Of a stretch of 12,467 nt of DNA, positions 1,537 to 11,755 are shown piece by piece. Numbering within the stretch: position 1 is the first letter of the stretch; the number at the start of each line of letters is the position of its first letter. This DNA is from Candidatus Binatia bacterium (GTDB lineage: Bacteria > Desulfobacterota_B > Binatia > UBA9968). The DNA is taken from contig JAICHC010000021.1 of assembly GCA_025922795.1 (NCBI GenBank), forward strand, positions 1-12,467, read 5' to 3'. A program made the position numbers and the translations under genes. Below the pieces are notes generated by a model. It had not been told where the DNA came from and ran no database searches. It saw nothing but the letters and a program-made list of their open reading frames with translations.

Positions 1537-2898
1537 ATGGCAAACGGCATTACCGAACAACTGGCGATCCATACGGCGAAAGTGCGCTACGAAGACATTC
1601 CTCCTGAGGCAATCGAAAAAGCCAAAGATTGCATCCTCGACCAGATCGGGGTCGAGCTGATTGGTTCCACCCTGGAGTGGAATAAGATCGCCTACCGCTA
1701 CGTCGCCGAGATGGGAGGGCGCGGCGAAAGCACTGTGGTCAACTACGGCGACAGAGTGCCGACTCTGGATGCGGCGTTCGTCAATGCGACCTTCGGTCAG
1801 GGCTGCGAGCTCGACGACGTCGGCTTTGCCGCGGGCGGCCACCCGAGCGCTGCTACCGTGCCGGTGGCGCTGGCCCTAGGTGAAAAGCAACGCAGCACGG
1901 GCAAAGATTTTCTCGCCGCCGTGGTCGTCGGCTGCGATGTCATGTACCGGCTGCTGGCGGCGGTGCGGCCTTCGTCGGGCAAGCGCGGGTTTCATAGCCA
2001 CGGCATCGGCGCACCCTTCGGCGCGATGGCAACGGCAGCGAGACTGCTTGGATTGAAAGAGGGGCAGATGCTTCATGCCTTCGGCATCGCCGGCATGCAT
2101 TCGAGCGGCACTATGGAATACGATCAAACCGGCGGCGAGGTGAAGCGCGTGATTGCCGGTGTCGGCGCCCGCAGCGGCATCCAGTCGGCGATGCTAGCCC
2201 AACTCGGGCTCACCGGCCCGCCGACCATCATCGAGGGCAAACGCGGATTTCTTAAAGTCTTCGCCGATCTGGTAGAGCCGGAGGAAATCACCCGCAATCT
2301 CGGCAGTGAGTTCAAGATCATGCGCATCTGGTTCAAGCTTTATCCGTGCGTCGCCACCGTCCAGGGAGTGATTTATACGCTCAGCAAATTGATCGAAGAG
2401 CATCGCTTCGGGGCCGACGACGTCGAAGAAATCCGCGTCGGCATCTCCGAAACTTCGTTGTCGCACGGCGGCGCGATTTACGAGCCGCACGATACCGCGA
2501 GCGCGCAGTTCAGCCTGCCGTTCTCGTTGGCCATCCGCCTGTTGAAGAACGACAACGATCTAAGCTTTTACATGGATCCCAAGCTGTGGACCGATCCGAA
2601 AGTTCTGGCGCTAGCCAAGAAAGTGAAGAGCTACGCCGACCCGAACGCGAAGAAGGACCAGAATTACAACACGACGATGGAGGTCAGGCTCACCAACGGC
2701 AAAACGTACAAAGCGTTCGAGCCCTATCCGCCCGGCTCGCCGCTCAACATGGTGAGCCGGGACGTGCTGCGCGCCAAGTTTCGTAAGATGGCGCGCGCCG
2801 TGCTACCTGACGAGCGCATCGACAAATTGATCGAAGCCGTAGATCGACTCGAGACCTGCAACGATACGGCGCAATTGATACCGCTGCTCGTGAAGTGA
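1537..2898 (+). CDS. MmgE/PrpD family protein (2-methylcitrate dehydratase-like)
   Basis: A 453-residue, full-length member of the MmgE/PrpD family, whose characterised members include 2-methylcitrate dehydratase PrpD and cis-aconitate decarboxylase. The N-terminus has the family helix (RYEDIPPEAIEKAKDCILD, about 17-35). ELDDVG at 91-96 followed by GGHPSA at 100-105 corresponds to the family's conserved acidic/histidine segment. GFHSHGIGAPFGAMATAA (about 151-168) forms the glycine-rich helical core. No signal peptide is seen, so it is cytoplasmic. The ATG at 1537 has GAGAGGA at 1527-1533. It starts 69 bases after the solute-binding protein gene on the same strand, so co-transcription is likely. 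Family members are often over-annotated as PrpD; the true reaction (dehydration, hydration or decarboxylation of a di- or tricarboxylate) is not decidable here. The neighbouring TcuA-like dehydrogenase is at least consistent with cis-aconitate-type chemistry. Confidence 0.9.
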   Translation: MANGITEQLAIHTAKVRYEDIPPEAIEKAKDCILDQIGVELIGSTLEWNKIAYRYVAEMGGRGESTVVNYGDRVPTLDAAFVNATFGQGCELDDVGFAAGGHPSAATVPVALALGEKQRSTGKDFLAAVVVGCDVMYRLLAAVRPSSGKRGFHSHGIGAPFGAMATAARLLGLKEGQMLHAFGIAGMHSSGTMEYDQTGGEVKRVIAGVGARSGIQSAMLAQLGLTGPPTIIEGKRGFLKVFADLVEPEEITRNLGSEFKIMRIWFKLYPCVATVQGVIYTLSKLIEEHRFGADDVEEIRVGISETSLSHGGAIYEPHDTASAQFSLPFSLAIRLLKNDNDLSFYMDPKLWTDPKVLALAKKVKSYADPNAKKDQNYNTTMEVRLTNGKTYKAFEPYPPGSPLNMVSRDVLRAKFRKMARAVLPDERIDKLIEAVDRLETCNDTAQLIPLLVK

Positions 2899-3010
2899 CG
2901 CGCAAGACGGCTGGGATGACCGAACCGGCGCTCCGCCACGTCCTCGAGTTCATCCACAAACATTAGCCCAACGTCGCAAGGTTCTTGCTTGCCTTGACTC
3001 TGTGGAGTAG

Positions 3011-3040
3011 ATCCAATCGACGGCACGATCGGATTTGTTT
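3011..3040 (+). terminator. Inverted repeat followed by T-rich run; possible terminator
   Basis: ATCCAATCG (3011-3019) and CGATCGGAT (3026-3034) are inverted copies with one mismatched pair and a six-base loop, followed by TTTGTTT at 3034-3040. It lies 113 bases after the MmgE/PrpD stop codon and 70 bases before the next start, which fits a weak intrinsic terminator. The stem is only about half GC and the T run is broken, so it might instead be an operator for the NIPSNAP gene. A TTGACT hexamer at 3039-3044 could be a -35 box for that gene, but its -10 partner (GATAGG, 3061-3066) is poor. Confidence 0.4.
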
Positions 3041-3103
3041 GACTGTTGGCGACGCACTCGGATAGGTTTCCATGGCGACATAATTAAATCGGAGGGAAAT
3101 AAA

Positions 3104-3394
3104 ATGCTATCGCAGATTCGCATTTACACGATCAATAAGGGTGAGATGGATAATTTTCTGAAGCATTTCAAAGAAGACATCATGGCGCTGCACCAAAAGA
3201 TCGGCGTACCCATCGTCGGCACCTGGGTGAATCGGCCACAGAATGAATTCATTTGGGTCAGGACCTACAAAGATAAGGCGGAGCTCGAAGCGAAGACCAA
3301 AGAGTTCCAAGCCGCGGTCGCGGAGGCCGGAATCAAACTTGGCGGCAACGTTGCGAAGATGGAAGTTCGCGAGGCCGAGTCGGCGTTCGCGTAG
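3104..3394 (+). CDS. NIPSNAP family protein (dimeric alpha/beta barrel)
   Basis: This 96-residue cytoplasmic protein has the NIPSNAP-domain layout. A first strand (QIRIYTINKGEMDNF) leads into a helix ending near HQKIGVPIVGTW. A second strand pair follows with the family-typical FIWVRTYKDKAELEAK, then a helix and a closing strand. Such proteins form dimeric ferredoxin-like barrels; in bacteria they often sit in catabolic or biosynthetic clusters with unproven roles, some resembling small monooxygenase or isomerase folds. The ATG at 3104 is preferred over an upstream in-frame start at 3035 because GGAGGG (3091-3096) precedes it at good spacing and homology begins at residue 2-3. It converges with the extradiol dioxygenase gene on the opposite strand. 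No catalytic residues can be assigned. Confidence 0.82.
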   Translation: MLSQIRIYTINKGEMDNFLKHFKEDIMALHQKIGVPIVGTWVNRPQNEFIWVRTYKDKAELEAKTKEFQAAVAEAGIKLGGNVAKMEVREAESAFA

Positions 3395-3456
3395 AAGTAG
3401 AGTTGACGGCGGTCACCGGTGGCGGCATATCCCCAGGCTATTCTGACGACTTGCGG

Positions 3457-3471
3457 CTCGTCGTAGACGAG
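3457..3471. other. Short perfect hairpin between convergent genes
   Basis: CTCGTC (3457-3462), a three-base loop GTA, and GACGAG (3466-3471) form a perfect six-pair stem in the 184-base space between the NIPSNAP stop and the stop of the convergent dioxygenase gene. The location suits a two-way transcription stop, but there is no T run on either side, so termination is only a guess. I see nothing else in this spacer. Confidence 0.3.
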
Positions 3472-3578
3472 TTGTCGGCCGGCCGGGATCTCTAACTGTC
3501 GGCTTGATGCTTGTTGTGGACCATCTTTTTCGCGCCGACGATCTGTTCACTGCAGGCGGGTTTGAACCCCGGCCCCTA

Positions 3579-4463
3579 CTAACCAAGCTCGAATTCCGTG
3601 CTCTGAACGTCGCCGCCCCAAACATCCACGGGAGTGCCGCTGGGGTAGACGATCGGTTGATGAGTGGCGTCGTCGAGCCGGCGATGGCCCCAGCCAAACT
3701 CCACGGCGAATCCCCCCGGGGTTTGCACATAAACATGTATGGTCTGACAATTGGGATGCCGCCCGGGTCCCATGCCGATGGGCGCTCCGTGGGTCCGCAG
3801 GAAATGATAGGAGCGCATGACGTCATCGAGCGAATCAACTTCGAGCATCACATGTTGCAGTCGGGGAGACTTGCCCGGCATACACGGCGCGAAAGCGATG
3901 TTGTGATGACGCGCATTGCAGCGCAGAAAGCACAAACGTATAGAGTCGTCGATGCATACCCAGTCGCTCAAGCGAAAGCCCAACACACCGGTGTAAAAGT
4001 CGTGTGACCGCTGGGTATCCTTGACCGTGAGCAGCACATGGCCCAGACCTGTGACGTTAAGTTCGCGAGTGTAATGCACCGGCTCTTCGTCAATCTCGAA
4101 GCCGTACGATAACGCCAGAGGATGACCATCGGGATCCTTGAGCTCGATAAACTCAGTCACCTGTCGTTCGAGACATTCCTCCTTGCTGCCTGGGCGCCAA
4201 TCCATGTCTCGGGCGGCGAGTTTGGTTTTCCACTCGTCCAGCGCGGCAGGGCCGCCGACGTCAAAGCCAATGTAATCAAGGACCGGCTCGCGAGCCGTAC
4301 GCGCCGCCAGGCGGTGTCGATAGCGATCGACCCGCATATAGGTCACGTTTCCGTCGGGCGAGTTGGTGGTCGGAAGACCAAGCATGTCATGGGAAAAACG
4401 CGCGAAGGTTTCGCGATCCGGCATGCCGACCCCAATTTGCATGATTTCTTTTATCGTACTCAT
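3579..4463 (-). CDS. Type I extradiol (catechol-type) dioxygenase, two-domain VOC protein
   Basis: A 294-residue cytoplasmic enzyme made of two vicinal-oxygen-chelate modules (about 5-122 and 138-260), the size and layout of 2,3-dihydroxybiphenyl 1,2-dioxygenase (BphC) and related enzymes that open a catechol ring next to the hydroxyls using Fe(II) and O2. The C-terminal module keeps the expected metal ligands His142 (GLGH), His204 (LQHVMLEV) and Glu255 (FAVEFGWG). It also keeps the residues aligned with the catalytic set, His187 (HHNIAFA), His236 (GRHPN) and Tyr245 (YVQTP). An active enzyme is therefore likely; the aromatic substrate is unknown. The ATG at 4463 has GGGAAAGGAT just upstream on the - strand. 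It is transcribed away from the MBL-fold gene, with a shared 216-base upstream region. The stop converges on the NIPSNAP gene. Confidence 0.9.
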   Translation of the reverse strand: MSTIKEIMQIGVGMPDRETFARFSHDMLGLPTTNSPDGNVTYMRVDRYRHRLAARTAREPVLDYIGFDVGGPAALDEWKTKLAARDMDWRPGSKEECLERQVTEFIELKDPDGHPLALSYGFEIDEEPVHYTRELNVTGLGHVLLTVKDTQRSHDFYTGVLGFRLSDWVCIDDSIRLCFLRCNARHHNIAFAPCMPGKSPRLQHVMLEVDSLDDVMRSYHFLRTHGAPIGMGPGRHPNCQTIHVYVQTPGGFAVEFGWGHRRLDDATHQPIVYPSGTPVDVWGGDVQSTEFELG

Positions 4464-4515
4464 GGTAGATCCTTTCCCAGCAAAACAGCGCGGTGTTGAT
4501 CATCCCTCAATCGTT

Positions 4516-4530
4516 CGGTTTGTACAACCG
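4516..4530. promoter_or_regulatory. Palindrome in the divergent upstream region; candidate operator
   Basis: CGGTT (4516-4520), TGTAC, AACCG (4526-4530) form a symmetric 15-base site. It lies 53 bases upstream of the dioxygenase start (- strand) and 150 bases upstream of the MBL-fold gene (+ strand). The size and symmetry suit a dimeric transcription factor site. No convincing -35/-10 pair was found for either gene, and no regulator gene is adjacent, so this is a candidate only. Confidence 0.35.
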
Positions 4531-4679
4531 CACGACGACGCAAGCAGCACCCCACGGGGAATGCCGGTTCAGAAAATCGACAGATCGTTGCAATCGTTTA
4601 TGAAGGTCGGCATCGTGAACGGAGAAAAGAAGTTTCATACATTGGTCACTGTACTAAAAAAAGAGGTGAGGAAAAAGCG

Positions 4680-5408
4680 ATGGCGCAAATCACGGAAATC
4701 GCCCCCGATATTTATCGTATCTCGACATTTATTCCTGAGGTGAATCTCCAGTTTAATCAATTTCTCGTGCGCGACGAGCAGCCGCTGCTGTTTCACACCG
4801 GTATGAAGGGACTGTTTCCGGTCGTGCGTGACGCCGTCGCCACGTTGCTCGCGCCCGCCACCCTCCGATGGATCGGCTTCAGCCATTTCGAGGCCGATGA
4901 ATGCGGTGCGCTCACGGAATGGCAGACGCTCGCGCCTGAGGCAACCGCGGTATGTAGTCTCGTCGCCAAACTGGTGAGCATCGACGATGTGGTCGCTCGC
5001 CGCCCGGCGCAGCCGCTGGCCGATGGAGAACAGCTTTGTACCGGGAAGTACCGGTTTCGCTTTCTCCAGACTCCGCATGTGCCGCACTGCTGGGAAGCGA
5101 GCCTGCTGTTTGAGGAAACCCATGGCACTCTGTTTTGTTCCGACCTGCTCCACCAGAGCGGGGATGTCGAGCCCAGCACCGGCGCGGATGTGGTTGGGCG
5201 ATTCGAGCAGACGCTCGTCGAATATCAGCAGGGGCCTTTTGCGAACTATCTACCGTATACACCCTACACAGAGCCGACGCTGAAACGGCTCGGGGCGCTC
5301 AAGCCCAAAACCTTGGCAACAATGCACGGGTCGACGTTCGTCGGTGATGGTGAGCGTGCCCTTGCCGACGTCGCAAGAGTCTTGAAAGAAGTCCTCGCGG
5401 GCCGCTAG
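4680..5408 (+). CDS. Stand-alone MBL-fold protein with flavodiiron-type metal site (ODP-like)
   Basis: A 242-residue cytoplasmic metallo-beta-lactamase-fold protein. It does not carry the usual HxHxDH motif. Instead it has His69-x-Glu71-x-Asp73, His136, Asp155 and His216. The spacing HxExD-x62-H-x18-D-x60-H equals that of the di-iron domain of flavodiiron proteins (rubredoxin:oxygen/nitric oxide oxidoreductases). There is no flavodoxin or rubredoxin domain after it; the protein ends at about the edge of the MBL domain. Such stand-alone domains resemble the oxygen-binding di-iron proteins (ODP), so O2 binding or sensing, or O2/NO reduction with a separate electron donor, is plausible. The start at 4680 follows GAGGTGAGG (4663-4671). 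It is divergent from the extradiol dioxygenase, an O2-using enzyme, which may be a functional hint. Downstream it is followed by a truncated membrane-protein start on the same strand. Confidence 0.82.
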
Positions 5409-5459
5409 CGGCAAACTGTGATTACACAGCTGGCCGGCTTTCAGAAAGGAAGCTAGCGC

Positions 5460-5624
5460 ATGAAGCTCAAGGTAGTGCTGACAGTCTCGGCGATTTACCT
5501 GGCCGTCCTTGGCGCCGCTTGCTGCGCTTCGCCAATGAGCCGATCGATGGTGGTCAGGTGTTCTTTCGATTCCGCTTCCCCCGGCGCCCAGCTATGCATC
5601 GGAAAATCGGTCGTGTGGACGTAG
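5460..5624 (+). pseudogene. 5' remnant of a small membrane-protein gene, cut at a junction
   Basis: AAAGGA at 5445-5450 leads at proper spacing to ATG 5460. The first 20 or so codons encode a credible signal or membrane segment (MKLKVVLTVSAIYLAVLGAA). From about residue 21 the translation turns into unstructured sequence that is simply the antisense of the phnA gene on the other strand, and it stops at 5622-5624 after 54 residues. I read this as the genuine start of a membrane-protein gene whose remainder was lost at a breakpoint near 5495-5530. It follows the MBL-fold gene by 51 bases and probably shared its transcript. The family is not recognised with certainty. An accidental 54-codon frame is possible but the paired ribosome site and hydrophobic start argue against it. 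Confidence 0.55.
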
Positions 5625-6136
5625 AGCAACCTGATATCCTCGCGGTTCTTGAGGATGTCGATCGCAACGGCCCAGAGCCAATAGTTGATCTCGCGGCTGT
5701 AAATAGGCGGTGGCTTTCCATACAGATCGATAAAATCGGCGGGCGGAGTTTCCGCCGCGACGGCGATGGTTGCGCCTTTGCTCAAGAGTCGAATGGTTTT
5801 GTTCTTGCAAGTGAGCAGAGCGGAGCGAAAGCCGCACTCGGCCGCGCGCGTTAGAATGGTCGGAACCCGGATGAAGTCCGCGCTCTCCATGTAGTCCGCT
5901 TGACCGCTGGTCTCGTCAAAGTACGAGTTTCCGGTGATCCCATGGCTTTTCGGCCAAGCGCCGCAGCAGATCGAGACGTTGTTGGCGTTGGTGACGGTTG
6001 GAAAAACCGCGTTGACCGTGTTGAACAGGCCGTCTTTGCTCATCGACCTCAGCACCGGCATGGGGCCGGCGTCAAAATAATCGATGCCGAAGCCGTCAAT
6101 CATGCCGATCACCACTCTTTGCTTTTCGAGAATCAT
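5495..6136 (-). pseudogene. phnA: Phosphonoacetate hydrolase-like alkaline phosphatase superfamily protein, C-terminally truncated
   Basis: The 213-residue product is the first half of an alkaline-phosphatase-superfamily hydrolase; phosphonoacetate hydrolase PhnA is about 400 residues. Visible active-site positions are Asp14 (MIDGFG), the nucleophile Thr49 (PTVTNANN), Asn70, Lys111 and Lys113 (TCKNK), and the Asp177/His181 pair (TTDFPMH). As I recall, PhnA of Pseudomonas fluorescens has D29, T64, N85, K126, K128, D202 and H206, so every spacing agrees apart from one shift of ten residues before Asp177. The lysines bind the substrate carboxylate, supporting cleavage of phosphonoacetate to acetate and phosphate. 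The following Asp-His metal pair and last His ligand are missing: the frame runs into unrelated sequence after EHLTTIDRLIG and stops at 5495. It is therefore probably inactive. The ATG at 6136, not a longer upstream start, is supported by AGGAGGAG (6143-6150). There is no signal peptide. It begins 16 bases after phnE and is the last gene of the operon. Confidence 0.8.
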
Positions 6137-6152
6137 GGCGAACTCCTCCTGC

Positions 6153-6935
6153 TTAAATGATCCTGCGGCGTATGGCCGCGCTGACTTGTTCGACCGCAAT
6201 GACCAAGCCAAAAATGGCTAAAATGGCGGTCGCGGCCTGACTATAGTTGAACATCTCCATTGCGACCTTGAGCTCGATGCCGATGCCGCCGGCTCCCACC
6301 AGTCCGAGAATCACCGACGAGCGTGTCGCTTTTTCAAGGCTGAAGAGCGAGCTGTTGATGAAGGAAGGCAGAGCCGCCGGTACCACCGAGCAGAAAACCA
6401 CGTCGGCCCGGCGTGCTCCAAGAGCCCGCAATGCTTCTTGCGGACCTTGGTGAGCTTCTTCCATCGCCTCCGCAAAAAAACGTCCGCAAAAACCGATCGT
6501 GTCGATGACGATGGCGAGGGTCGCGGCGAATGGACCAAGCCCGACAGCGACGACAAACAACAGCGCCCAGACAAGGTCCGGGACGGTGCGGAAAAGCGAT
6601 ACGACCATCCTGGCGAGAAAATAGAGCGGCGGAAACGGGCTATGGAACCGGCTTGCCAGGATCGCCAAAAAGAAGCTCAAGACAATTCCGAGCGAGGTGC
6701 CGACCAGGGCCATTCGAAAAGTCTCCGCGATAGCCGTTCCTACCCGGTGGATTTTGTCCAGGTCGGGAGGAAACATCTCCCCGAGGATCCGCCCGATATG
6801 CGGCAGCCCGGCGATAAGTTGGTTGGCAGAAAGGCCGACATTGGCGGCCGAATGAATAAGCAGCGCGAGCGTCAGCAGCCCGAAAAACGAGCCGAGTCCC
6901 GGAAGCTGAAAACGAGGCGGCAAGGAGTTAGGCAT
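6153..6935 (-). CDS. phnE: Phosphonate ABC transporter permease
   Basis: A 260-residue inner-membrane permease of the PhnE family. Hydrophobic segments lie at about 15-33, 76-95, 120-146, 203-222 and 233-252. The EAA-type cytoplasmic loop that contacts the ATPase is at about 154-176 (FAEAMEEAHQGPQEALRALGA), preceded by the PhnE-typical GLGPFAATLAIVIDTIGF (133-149) and followed by VVPAALPSF. The ATG at 6935 overlaps the end of phnC by eight bases (ATGCCTAA), so the two are translationally coupled. It would pair with PhnC and PhnD to import phosphonates, phosphite or phosphate esters. The gene itself looks intact, unlike its two neighbours. Confidence 0.92.
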   Translation of the reverse strand: MPNSLPPRFQLPGLGSFFGLLTLALLIHSAANVGLSANQLIAGLPHIGRILGEMFPPDLDKIHRVGTAIAETFRMALVGTSLGIVLSFFLAILASRFHSPFPPLYFLARMVVSLFRTVPDLVWALLFVVAVGLGPFAATLAIVIDTIGFCGRFFAEAMEEAHQGPQEALRALGARRADVVFCSVVPAALPSFINSSLFSLEKATRSSVILGLVGAGGIGIELKVAMEMFNYSQAATAILAIFGLVIAVEQVSAAIRRRII

Positions 6936-7787
6936 CGGCTGCCGGAGAATCGTAGATCTCCCGTAAGCTCGAAATCGTTTGGCTCTTTGCCGGCGCGTCG
7001 AGAACCAATGAGCCGCCGGAGAGCCCCAGAAGCCGCGCGGAATAGCGTAACGCGTGCTGCAGGTTGTGAGAGCTGAACAGAAACGTGATGCGGCCTTTCT
7101 CCATCAGACCGGCGAAAAGCGTCATGATCTCCTCGGCGGCCTTGGGGTCGAGGCTCGCCACCGGCTCATCCGCGATAACGACGCGCGGCGACTGCATGAG
7201 CGCCCGGGCGATCGCCACCCGTTGGGACTGGCCGCCCGAGAGCCGATCGGCGCGGCGACCCGCACAATCCGCCATTCCGACCAACTCGAGACAGTGAAGA
7301 GCCCGTTCTCTCTCGATGCTCGGGGCGATCTGATGCCACCAGCCACTGATGCCGGTCAGGGACAGCGCGCCTGGAGGACGTTGGAGAGCACCGATAGCCG
7401 TCCGACCAGGTTGTGTTGTTGGAATACAAAGCCCACCCTGGCGCGAAACTCCCTCAGCCTCCGAGGCGGCAACGTCGAAAGCACCTCGCCGAAAAGGCAC
7501 GCGCTGCCTTCATCGATCGGCGCCAGGCCGACACAGCAACGCAACAACGTCGATTTCCCCGCTCCGTTGCAGCCGATGAGAGCCACGGCCTCACCCTTGG
7601 GGACTGCAAAGCTGATATCGTCGAGAACCTTGCCGTTCGGGTCATAGCTCTTGCTCAACCCGATCGCCGCTACATCGATGCTTGGAAACGGGCCGGTAAC
7701 GGCGGCATCAGGAAGTTCGTTACCGATCGGACGACGCGCTCGGAGAACCGCGCCGGATAGCAGCGCCATCGCGCTTATGCCGCTCAT
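6928..7787 (-). pseudogene. phnC: Phosphonate ABC transporter ATPase with a single-base frameshift
   Basis: Two overlapping frames together encode one PhnC. The upstream frame gives a 36-residue extension, then the ATPase core with Walker A GCNGAGKST (72-80) and Q-loop VFQQ (121-124), and reads to a premature TGA at 7356-7358 after SVLSNVLQARCP. The downstream frame continues the family at once with ALSLTGISGWW, the signature LSGGQSQ (183-189), Walker B VVIADE (203-208) and the H-loop His241. Adding one C at the + strand CC 7370-7371 restores NVLQGALSLTGISGWW, matching the PhnC pattern NVLHGAL, and yields a 286-residue protein of nearly normal length. I see no slippery heptamer, so programmed frameshifting is unlikely. 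It is a recent inactivating mutation or a sequencing error. The start at 7787 overlaps the phnD stop by one base (TGATG), with GGAGG at 7794-7798. Confidence 0.88.
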
Positions 7788-8728
7788 CAATTGCCTCCGA
7801 CAAATTGCGCGTACTGCGTGTGGCCGATGGTTGCATCCATGGCGCGGATATAGTCGTAATCCCGTTCTTCGATGCGCGTGAGAAACTTCATGCCTTTGTA
7901 TTTCTGGGTGTCTTTGCCGGTCAAAATCGCTTTGATCAGCTCTTGTGACCGGTTGAGAAAAGCCTGACGAACCGTCTCGACGATTTTTTTGTCGACGTGC
8001 GCGCCGGCCAGCAATGGATCGTTAGGCAGGTCGGGGCCGCGCGAGATCACTCGGAACGCCGCGGGCTCCAATGGCTTTTCTTTATCGCGCAGCACGAGAA
8101 AGTAGCTATAGGTCATGCCGAAGGCCGCAACGTCGCCGCGTTTTAGCGCTTCCCAACCCACGTTGGTGGCGACGTGCTGCGCCTGAATATCTTTGAGAGG
8201 GTCGAGTCCGTCGTCCTTCAGGAGTTGCATGGGCGCGAGATGCTTGGACGTGGAGCCGACGTCGCCGAACGCGACTTTTTTGCGCTTGAGATCCTTGACG
8301 CCGGTGATGCCGCTGTCGGCCATGGTCACCAGCGCCGCAAAGTAATCCGGCCTCGAGAAGCCGATGATCGGGTAGGCGTTCGTGCGCGCACGAAAAATGA
8401 TGTACTCGGCCGGTCCGGTGAGCACCAGATCGATCTTCCGCGACTTGAGCGCTTCGACCGCCGCGGTGCGATTGCTCACGGGGAAGAACTTGATGTCGAG
8501 GCCGCTCGCGGCGCCCAGGACCTTTTGAAACGCGCCATACTCGGCGTGGAGTTCTTCGAGCCCGACGATGTCGGTCACCGCAAGGCGGACGCTCTCCTGC
8601 GCGCACAGCGCGCGCGCAAGCAACAGGCTGGCGCATATTAGAGCGACTGCCAGAACAACTTGAAACCGCAAACGGCGCAACCCTCGCAGAGCCGCTGCAC
8701 CGTCTTGGACGTTAAAGCATGAATCCAT
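7787..8728 (-). CDS. phnD: Phosphate/phosphite/phosphonate ABC transporter substrate-binding protein
   Basis: A 313-residue PhnD-family periplasmic binding protein. An arginine-rich N-terminus leads into a hydrophobic stretch at about 22-39 and probable signal cleavage after ALCA (43/44). The mature part shows PhnD features: VRLAVTDIVG at the first strand, AVEALKSRKIDLVLTGPAEYI, and DLKRKKVAFGDVGSTSKHLAPMQLLKDDGLDPLKDI, where the GSTS loop contacts the phosphonate or phosphate group. The ATG at 8728 is used because AAGGAGG (8734-8740) precedes it; an upstream in-frame start at 8785 would add 19 residues and spoil the signal peptide. It is the first gene of phnD-phnC-phnE-phnA and is divergent from the polyphosphate kinase 2 gene. 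The 258-base shared upstream region has a TAAAAT-like -10 on the - strand at 8804-8809 but no matching -35, so the promoter is unresolved, and I found no obvious Pho box. Confidence 0.9.
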   Translation of the reverse strand: MDSCFNVQDGAAALRGLRRLRFQVVLAVALICASLLLARALCAQESVRLAVTDIVGLEELHAEYGAFQKVLGAASGLDIKFFPVSNRTAAVEALKSRKIDLVLTGPAEYIIFRARTNAYPIIGFSRPDYFAALVTMADSGITGVKDLKRKKVAFGDVGSTSKHLAPMQLLKDDGLDPLKDIQAQHVATNVGWEALKRGDVAAFGMTYSYFLVLRDKEKPLEPAAFRVISRGPDLPNDPLLAGAHVDKKIVETVRQAFLNRSQELIKAILTGKDTQKYKGMKFLTRIEERDYDYIRAMDATIGHTQYAQFVGGN

Positions 8729-8986
8729 AGGATCCTCCTTTGGCAAGTTTTTCTGAAAACCATTGAAACCGCTGAGAGTTAACAAAATGTGACGGGGAGG
8801 CGAATTTTAGATGAACGGATGCAGAGCGGGGAGAGTTCACCCGTTAGATGGTTTCTGCGGCCGGCCATGCGAGAGGCGCTGTCAAGGCACCTGATTGCAA
8901 AAGCTGGCGCTACCCCAACATCTTAAGCTAAGTTTCCGGAAGCGAGCTCGTTTGAACTCGAATGAAAACACCATGAAAGGGCCTTT

Positions 8987-9862
8987 ATGAAGATCGACTC
9001 CGAGGATTTTCGCGTGGGTGAGGGGAAAAACGTCGTGCTCAAGAAGTGGCCAACGAAGTTGAAGCCCTATTACAAGACGGGCAAGCAACTGAAGAAACTC
9101 CTTCAAGACCGCATCGAAAAAATGAGCGATCTGCAAGCCGTGCTTTACGCCTCGAATCGCTACGCGGTGTTGCTGATCTTTCAGTCCATGGATGCCGCCG
9201 GCAAGGACAGCGCCATCAAACATGTGATGTCCGGGGTCAATCCTCAAGGTTGTCAGGTTTTTAGCTTCAAGCATCCAAGCGCGGAAGAGTTGGACCACGA
9301 CTTTTTGTGGCGCACAACTCGCTCCTTGCCGGAGCGCGGCCGGATCGGCATCTTCAATCGCTCCTATTATGAGGAAGTTCTGATCGTCAAGGTTCATCCT
9401 GAGTTGCTCGAAGCCGAGGGGGTTCCGGACGCCGCAAGGGGCCAAAAGTTGTGGAAACAGCGCTACCGATCGATTTGCGATTTGGAGGCGCACCTTCATC
9501 GCAACGGCACTCGGATCGTGAAATTTTTTCTCCACCTCTCCGAGGAAGAACAGCGCCTGCGCTTCCTTGCGCGCATCGACGAGCCGGACAAGAACTGGAA
9601 GTTCAGCCGCGGGGATGTGGAAGAGAGAAAGTTTTGGAAAAATTATATGAAGGCCTACGAGGACTGTCTCAGCGCCACCAGCACCAGCGAGTCCCCCTGG
9701 TACGTCGTACCGGCGGACGACAAGAAGAACGCCCGGCTGATCATATCGCAAATTCTTCTGGACACACTCCGGCAACTAAAACTCGAATACCCAAGAATTA
9801 CCGACGAGCAACAGAAGGAACTACGTGCCATACGGAAGCTGCTCGCAAGTAGGTCCGCCTAG
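8987..9862 (+). CDS. Polyphosphate kinase 2 family protein, class III-like
   Basis: A 291-residue cytoplasmic kinase of the PPK2 family, which moves phosphate between inorganic polyphosphate and nucleotides. The Walker A region is [18 protein letters not shown] (66-83); the lid and Walker B region contains [16 protein letters not shown] (117-132). FNRSYYEE is the form I associate with class III enzymes, which phosphorylate AMP and ADP, as opposed to the FDRSWYN form of class [21 protein letters not shown] and [17 protein letters not shown] also match the family. Ser67 stands where most relatives have glycine in the Walker A loop. The ATG at 8987 has GAAAGGG (8975-8981) upstream. It is divergent from the phosphonate operon. 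A shared role in phosphorus economy is attractive but is inference. Confidence 0.92.
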
Positions 9863-10258
9863 GTCGTGTTCAGTGGGAAATTCGACTGAAATGACAATGC
9901 GCCGGAACGGCCAACCAAGTTGCAACCACAATCGCCCGGAAACCCGAGTGATCTGCCAGACGTGACCGGGGAGAAAATGACGGCTCCACTGCCGTGCTTT
10001 GCCGGTAGGAGATTGAATTTTTAGGAATATTCTCGGCGCAAGTGTGAAGCCCAGGAATGCATCATTGCAAGACCTGATCTTCGATCCGCTCTTGACCCAT
10101 AGACCCACTTCTGCACCTTGATCTAGATTCCGACAGAGTCTCTTGCATGCGCCGCTCGTTATCAGCGATGCGGCTTCCTTGTTTCGTTCACCCGTATTTC
10201 TATAATTAATCGTCTGTACCCATACCGGCCGCACAGGCGCGATTACTCGGAGACGGTC
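9863..10258. other. 396-base stretch with no convincing gene
   Basis: Between the PPK2 stop and the radical SAM start I find no gene I can support. The - strand is open from 10486 to 9821 across this stretch, but its ends lie antisense to two clear genes, it has no ribosome binding site at its start, and the product matches nothing I know. The part from about 9870 to 9960 contains direct echoes (CGGAA- and AAGTT-type words) that faintly recall the ends of IS21-like elements. That is not strong enough to call. The last 80 bases hold the promoter of the radical SAM gene. Confidence 0.5.
10179..10206 (+). promoter_or_regulatory. Sigma-70-like promoter of the radical SAM gene
   Basis: A perfect TATAAT lies at 10201-10206, with TTGTTT at 10179-10184 as a weak -35 and a 16-base spacer. 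In this GC-rich setting an exact -10 hexamer is unlikely by chance at such a position. Transcription would begin near 10213, giving a leader of about 46 bases before the ATG at 10259. Confidence 0.5.
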
Positions 10259-11755
10259 ATGAATATACTCCTTCTTTCGATGCCGGATTCCTCTGAGCAT
10301 ACACCGAGCGTCAGCATGCGGATGCCGAACGGCGCACTCGGTTCCCTCGCAGGAAATGTCGACCCGCACCATCGGATCGCTGTTGCCGATCTCATATTGG
10401 TTGCGAAACGTATCCGAGCAACCGTCGAAGAGCTCATGGAAAAAACCCAGCCGGATTTGGTGGGCCTCTCGGTGATGACCTTCCAACGGAAGACCGCTAA
10501 AGCAATCATCGGGCTAGTGCGCTCGCTTCGGCCGAATGTGCGCGTTGTCGTGGGCGGCTATGACCCGAGCATGGCGCCCGAAGCCTATACCGAGGATTCG
10601 GCCGATTTCGTCGATTTTGTCGTGCGCGGCGAAGGCGAGACCACTTTCCGCGAGTTGTTACGCGCCCTCGAATCGGAAAATGGCTATGAGCGAATCTTAG
10701 GTTTGTCCTTTCGGGAGCACGGGCGGTTTCGACACAATCCCGATCGCCCGGTGAACCAACTTAACACCGGCGAGATTCGGCTGCCGAACCGCAACGCCCG
10801 CGTTCTCCGCGGCTACACGATGCTTGGCCGCCAGGTGGATGTCGTCGAGACTTCCCGCGGTTGTACGTTCGATTGCAGCTTCTGTTCAATTATCGCGATG
10901 CGTGGTCGCCAATTTTACACTTATTCGCTCGATCGGGTATTGGCGGACATCCGCGACGCCCGCGATCACGGCGCACGAGCGATTTTCTTAATCGATGACA
11001 ACATCACCCTGAACGTGCGGCGCTTCGAAGTCCTTTGCCAGGCGATTATCAACGCAGGGCTAAATTGCGTGGATTACATCGTGCAGGCGATGACTTCAGC
11101 GATCGCCAACCATAGTCAGACACTCGTGCCGCTGATGCGCAAAGCGGGTTTTCGGTACGTTTTCCTCGGTATCGAGAACATCCTGGAGTCTGATTTAAAC
11201 TTGCTGCGCGCCGGTTCCAAGAACGCGCGGCGTGAAAACGGGCGCAAGGCTGGCAACGCCACACTCGAGGCGATCGCCGCCCTGCACCGGAACAAGATGT
11301 TTGTCGTCGGCGGCCTGATTGTCGGCAATCCCTCCGATACGCGCGAGGCCGTGGAGGCTAATCTTGAATTCGCGCGGCGATACGTCGATTGGCCCTATAT
11401 CCAGCATCCCACGCCTTATCCTCGCACGCCGATGACCCAAGACTTTCGCGCGCGCGGCCTGATCATCGACGATCAGCCGGAAAACTACGACGGAACAACC
11501 GCCGTCGTGCGAGGCGATCACTTACCGGCCGAAGAGATCGAATTTTTGAGATGGCGTGCGGAGCGCTGGATGAAAGTTCGTCACTTGCGGCCGGTCTTCT
11601 CTCACAGCCCGCTGTTCGTCATGCGCAATGGCGCAAAAATGCTCGCCCATACCTTTCGCGGAGTGACCTTAAAGACCCTGTTGGGCCTCGAAGATGAACG
11701 CACAGCTTTCGCGCGCTACCGCGCAATCCGTCGGGCGGAGCGAGTGTATGTTTGA
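10259..11755 (+). CDS. Radical SAM protein with N-terminal B12-binding-type domain
   Basis: A 498-residue cytoplasmic enzyme. Residues 1 to about 145 resemble a cobalamin-binding Rossmann domain, including PDLVGLSVMTFQ, VRVVVGGYDPS and DFVVRGEGETTFREL. The radical SAM barrel follows, with Cys202, Cys206 and Cys209 in CTFDCSFC holding the 4Fe-4S cluster that cleaves S-adenosylmethionine, then YVFLGIEN and GGLIVGNPSD as later barrel strands. The C-terminal 100 residues (from about HLPAEEIEFLRWRAERW) form an extra helical module. The classical DxHxxG cobalamin motif is absent; the corresponding region reads VDPHHRIAVADL, so cobalamin may be bound without a histidine ligand or not at all. The family includes methyltransferases and hopanoid or chlorophyll-pathway enzymes; the substrate here is unknown. 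GGAG at 10249-10252 supports the ATG. It stands as a single gene with its own promoter. Confidence 0.88.
   Translation: MNILLLSMPDSSEHTPSVSMRMPNGALGSLAGNVDPHHRIAVADLILVAKRIRATVEELMEKTQPDLVGLSVMTFQRKTAKAIIGLVRSLRPNVRVVVGGYDPSMAPEAYTEDSADFVDFVVRGEGETTFRELLRALESENGYERILGLSFREHGRFRHNPDRPVNQLNTGEIRLPNRNARVLRGYTMLGRQVDVVETSRGCTFDCSFCSIIAMRGRQFYTYSLDRVLADIRDARDHGARAIFLIDDNITLNVRRFEVLCQAIINAGLNCVDYIVQAMTSAIANHSQTLVPLMRKAGFRYVFLGIENILESDLNLLRAGSKNARRENGRKAGNATLEAIAALHRNKMFVVGGLIVGNPSDTREAVEANLEFARRYVDWPYIQHPTPYPRTPMTQDFRARGLIIDDQPENYDGTTAVVRGDHLPAEEIEFLRWRAERWMKVRHLRPVFSHSPLFVMRNGAKMLAHTFRGVTLKTLLGLEDERTAFARYRAIRRAERVYV

Follow-up and report, generated by a model that had tools for sequence, protein, structure and literature searches.

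Genes and features at the locus

The window, by which I mean the whole stretch of 12,467 bases that was analysed, starts at the left with the end of a tricarballylate-dehydrogenase-like gene. Next come, in order, genes for a solute-binding protein and for MmgE/PrpD, one small gene, a gene of the glyoxalase fold and an ODP-family beta-lactamase-fold gene, followed by the joint that is the subject of this study and, on the minus strand, a phnDCEA-like operon. The right part is occupied by a polyphosphate kinase of the PPK2 type, a radical-SAM gene of the B12 type and one more open frame. Around the joint, the following features are found.

4680..5408, plus strand: ODP-family metallo-beta-lactamase-fold protein, upstream of the membrane-gene fragment (PF19583, 1.9e-12, profile positions 1-194 of 194, hence full-length)
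5445..5452, plus strand: ribosome-binding-like AAAGGAAG, 7 bases before the membrane-gene ATG, read directly from the sequence
5460..5513, plus strand: 5' end of a membrane-protein gene, 18 codons, MKLKVVLTVSAIYLAVLG (whole gene about 129 aa, DUF4345-like; PF26941 label on 22 of 32 matches)
5495..5510, minus strand: foreign tail of the phnA frame, R-T-A-R-stop, antisense to the membrane gene, with the same tail in the database protein P0001
5511..5516, no strand: junction palindrome GGCGCC, the end of both homologies by position-by-position agreement on both sides
about 5511..6136, minus strand: 5' part of a phosphonoacetate-hydrolase-like gene, 209 codons (PF01663, 1.1e-22)
6153..6935, minus strand: phnE-like permease (PF00528, 2e-15)
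6928..7790, minus strand: phnC-like ATPase in two overlapping frames (halves of PF00005 in the two frames)
7787..8785, minus strand: phnD-like phosphonate-binding protein (PF12974, 5e-37)

Judged by spacing and strand, the phnE-like permease probably lies in the same operon as the phnA-like gene. The two frames of the phnC-like ATPase (7356-7790 and 6928-7500, minus strand) are separated by a frameshift near 7370, which may be either decay or a sequence error; TIGR02315 is the best NCBIfam model on the first half of this gene, with a score below its cut-off. Two of the four operon genes are broken, the phnC-like one by frameshift and the phnA-like one by the cut described below.

The MmgE/PrpD neighbour has matches in three of five genomes with a top identity of 35%, and thus no close kin among them. 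The radical-SAM protein of the B12-binding type (10259-11755, plus strand) scores below the cut-offs of all NCBIfam families listed (25 of 26), and at 1e-90 it has matches in none of 395 genomes of one phylum, which is weak evidence of absence, as no genome among the 20 rows listed had more than three candidates scored. The window has no tRNA and no Rfam matches. Between 4400 and 9100 there are no promoter-like sites and eight terminator-like sites, compared with 6.0 in shuffled sequences, none of them at the joint. Partial matches were obtained in 77 plasmid records, none of which covers 80% of the query in a single place.

The two gene ends

The phnA-like frame (6136-5495, minus strand) encodes 213 residues, of which residues 12-210 match positions 5-204 of the 342 in PF01663 at 81.5 bits, above the curated cut-off of 23. 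Its top relatives of solved structure are the phosphonoacetate hydrolases 3szy (2.9e-24) and 1ei6 (5.1e-23). A protein-database search with this fragment gave 1572 matches; of the best 120, which are those listed, 116 are full-length relatives (362-387 aa), and a length of exactly 374 aa is shared by 80 of the 120. P0002 is the closest full-length relative among the matches listed (378 aa, 92% identical, 55 members, 12 contigs), with 15 differences from the window over 209 residues. The window tracks its relatives through AQQAAP and then continues with RTAR and a stop, where P0002 has DAAFLITADHGMNYK. Among the matches listed, Pro209 is shared with 111 of the 116 full-length relatives, Arg210 with none, Thr211 with one, Ala212 with 109 and Arg213 with none. 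I take the agreement at Ala212 to be chance, and on this alignment the homology ends at Pro209, with RTAR and the stop being foreign. A preliminary description of this DNA had put the loss of homology at about residue 203; the truncation stands, but its limit is residue 209.

I also considered that a short phnA family might end at this point, and rejected it: only P0001 of the 120 proteins listed has this end, and 116 are at least 362 aa long. The other three short proteins listed (P0003, P0094 and P0111) end at other places. A homologue family of about 213 residues, which could have shown the gene to be whole, was accordingly not found among the matches listed.

I take the metal site of PhnA, including the nucleophile, to consist of seven residues: D29, T68, D211, H215, D250, H251 and H377. 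By this list the fragment has equivalents of four, namely D14 (in the 1ei6 alignment), T49, D177 and H181, and the Asp-His pair and the C-terminal His, both present in P0002, fall in the lost half. Of the seven, three are lost and four kept. The fragment also keeps a lysine pair, as its TCKNK aligns with TAKDK of 3szy and 1ei6, and K111 and K113 are presumably the counterparts of the two PhnA lysines that act on the leaving group. Two lysines of PhnA are described as stabilising the leaving group (PMC10574752). The equivalog cut-off of TIGR02335 (PhnA), 407.55 bits, is missed by the fragment (113.5 bits) and by the intact P0002 (187.6 bits), so that the family would better be called PhnA-like than PhnA, and its substrate is putative.

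On the other strand, the ATG at 5460 opens MKLKVVLTVSAIYLAVLG 7 bases after AAAGGAAG, in agreement with the ribosome binding site noted before. Its frame of 54 residues matches no Pfam or NCBIfam profile. A search with the first 20 residues found 32 proteins at E-values from 0.05 to 4.4, singly weak because the query is short. As these 32 were picked by exact words, exact matches are over-represented among them, whereas the agreement in start position and family length carries no such bias: the identical first 18 residues are present, at residue 1, in 27 of the 32, and 22 of the 32 are 129 aa long. Of 30 matches selected for sharing the first 15 residues, 29 still agree at residue 18, one at residue 19 and none at residues 20-24. 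When the comparison of these 30 is extended without gaps as far as residue 40, P25 and S38 are shared by all and S35 by one, and I take the agreement at these three positions past residue 24 to be chance; the homology to the membrane family ends at Gly18. The gene had been said to lose sense within about 20 codons at the same place, which is correct as to the place and more exactly 18 codons.

In a Pfam scan of four members of the membrane family, P0143 matched DUF4345 at 19.8 bits, below the cut-off of 26.5, and the other three matched no family, yet P0121 and P0136 are given as PF26941 in the protein-database listing. At 1e-10 the family was found in none of the 35 genomes searched from one order, and at 1e-15 in one of 395 genomes of that order's phylum (G243, with a whole relative, 60% identical). 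The remainder of the plus-strand frame, 5517-5624, is the antisense of phnA. When the 54-residue frame was searched in 25 genomes, the best match (1.9e-7) was inside and antisense to the minus-strand phnA-like gene of G001, and the others were at 0.05 or worse. I rejected a real 54-residue gene, as residues 20-24 agree in none of the 30 matches and no Pfam or NCBIfam profile fits; the membrane family, mostly of 129 aa, does not match the whole frame.

The codon for Gly18 in the membrane gene has its last base at 5513, and that for Pro209 in the phnA-like gene occupies 5510-5512, so both touch GGCGCC (5511-5516), and the two homology limits meet at 5511-5513, within this palindrome. At least GGC, and perhaps all six bases, could be attributed to either gene. 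The coincidence of the limits implies that both genes were cut at one point, and the central claim of the preliminary description, two truncated head-on genes, is thereby upheld. The missing halves of both genes are absent from the rest of the window. No exact repeat of at least 11 bases connects the joint and its surroundings (roughly 50 bases) with any other place in the window, and none of the window's repeats of at least 16 bases lies at the joint. With a split at 5515 the tetranucleotide distance is 0.175, inside the range of 0.158-0.238 for 16 splits from 2500 to 10000; by this weak test, composition has no step at the joint and gives no hint of two sources. The exact 41-base joint has no match in viral contigs, and the RNA fold around it has a z of -1.18. 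A literature search found no related account of a truncated, disrupted or pseudogene phnA; I claim nothing wider from it.

A second copy of the joint and the search for its counterpart

Among the 120 proteins listed of the 1572 matches, P0001 is the only one with the end seen in the window. It has 213 aa, is encoded on an ENA contig of 1601 bases and closes with the same RTAR; its sole difference from the window is at residue 35, which is A in P0001 and D in both the window and P0002. Its cluster at 90% identity holds five sequences, and the window's own protein may be among them. I read P0001 as a near-identical allele of the same joint and not as an independent family, and to end in RTAR and a stop its contig should hold membrane-gene DNA past the joint. 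As it is improbable that chimeras arose twice, separately, at one base, the joint was probably inherited, and the presence of the same joint in a non-identical sequence speaks for inheritance of the breakpoint rather than for a single misjoin. It may be, though, that P0001 shares the window's sample and that its one-residue difference is an error.

The earlier description predicted a reciprocal junction uniting the rest of the membrane gene with the missing half of phnA; it was found neither in the window nor in the protein database. The database search was made with the C-terminal piece of P0002 and candidates of about 96-304 aa, and gave 203 matches. Among the best 120, which are those listed, the top C-terminal piece is P0153, 78% identical; it was rejected as the reciprocal product, as its phnA sequence extends back before the joint. 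P0003 (220 aa, phnA, 75% identical) was rejected as another instance of the same joint, as its end falls past it and represents a different split. P0003 and P0189, the latter a protein of 160 aa that begins within the missing half, are both listed on one contig of 18,024 bases, and are probably one gene split by a frameshift.

Searching genome contigs with the phnA fragment yielded four loci of 52-70% identity, three of them with full-length genes of 374-375 aa, while the phnA-like locus L004 runs off its contig. The ODP gene is present in three of the four genomes with such loci, and in two of the four ODP loci (L005 and L006) no membrane-family gene is found among the open reading frames of at least 90 aa. 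At 1e-40, P0002 has matches in two of 35 genomes (whole in G001, a contig-end piece in G004) and in none of 24. By eye, from the translations, the phnA-like genes of two other lineages (L002, 1-2885; L003, 4351-9125) come after Pst-type permease and ATPase genes, not phnDCE, and L003 has two phnA-like genes in tandem.

At positions conserved in at least 95% of the full-length relatives among the matches listed, the fragment has changes at 0 of 92, as has P0002, the mean for intact relatives being 1.05. At positions conserved in at least 90%, it has changes at 3 of 112, against a mean of 2.4 in intact relatives, 41% of which have as many or more. The unchanged 92 positions mean that the break is recent, or that an artefact cut an intact gene, or that the fragment is still selected; the break, if real, would be recent.

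Origin of the joint

That both genes are truncated, that the cuts coincide and that the phnA end recurs in another, non-identical sequence are plain observations. The explanation that I consider likely is a genuine and fairly recent rearrangement breakpoint, produced by illegitimate end-joining at a short stretch common to both genes (GGC to GGCGCC). This would have brought the 5' end of the membrane gene head-on against the 5' half of phnA, which closes the phnD-phnC-phnE-phnA operon, with the short homology guiding the join, in an inversion or an insertion/deletion within one genome. As a result, both the small membrane gene and the phnA-like gene, last in an operon for the transport and hydrolysis of phosphonate, would be dead, the phnA product being without the Asp-His pair and the C-terminal His.

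Rather improbable is a chimera from amplification, library making or assembly, in which two pieces of one genome, or of two genomes, were joined. Over 85% of multiple-displacement-amplification chimeras are inverted with intervening deletions, and over 70% are primed at 2-21 complementary bases (PMC1855051), so the inverted orientation and the 3-6 shared bases have the usual anatomy of such chimeras. The phnA fragment also looks undecayed, and the phnC frameshift hints at imperfect sequence. However, P0001 has the joint at exactly the same residue although its residue 35 is different, and the composition, a weak test as noted, is without a step. In addition, the shared bases are far fewer than an assembly k-mer, which makes a simple graph misjoin unlikely. 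The choice between breakpoint and misjoined contig that had been left at the outset is thus tilted towards biology by P0001, with some room for an amplification chimera.

It is very doubtful that the 213-residue product is retained as a protein of its own, for instance binding phosphonate or a partner without cutting. The five-member cluster, the unchanged conserved positions and the transport genes upstream would suit such a protein, but a recent break explains the conservation, the intact P0002 is no different in this respect, and the end is confined to P0001 among the 120 matches listed. A product cut ahead of the Asp-His pair and the C-terminal His would moreover probably be unstable. Least credible of all is a reversible inversion with one end at GGCGCC that toggles the phosphonate hydrolase and the membrane gene together, intact and cut forms coexisting in the population.

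The joint probably reflects a real genome rearrangement of an ordinary sort, with little reach beyond this locus. It does correct the annotation, as the 213-aa 'phosphonoacetate hydrolase' encoded here is about half an enzyme, and where phnA fragments are counted as genes, counts of phosphonate use would be too high. Looking for another allele that carries the same foreign tail is a way to check a contig breakpoint without having its genome at hand.

Compared with known systems, the fragment aligns to the N-terminal half of PhnA (TIGR02335; 3szy, 1ei6), with D14, T49, D177, H181 and K111/K113 at the ligand, nucleophile and substrate-lysine positions, but the copy in the window is truncated and even its intact relative P0002 scores under the cut-off. 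The other gene shares its first 18 residues with 27 of 32 matches in a family of small membrane proteins, about 129 aa long (DUF4345-like; PF26941), but these are just 18 of some 129 residues and fall short of a full-length match. As in short-homology breakpoints and in multiple-displacement-amplification chimeras (PMC1855051), inverted sequences meet at a few shared bases. Unlike a one-off amplification chimera, the joint recurs in a second, non-identical sequence.
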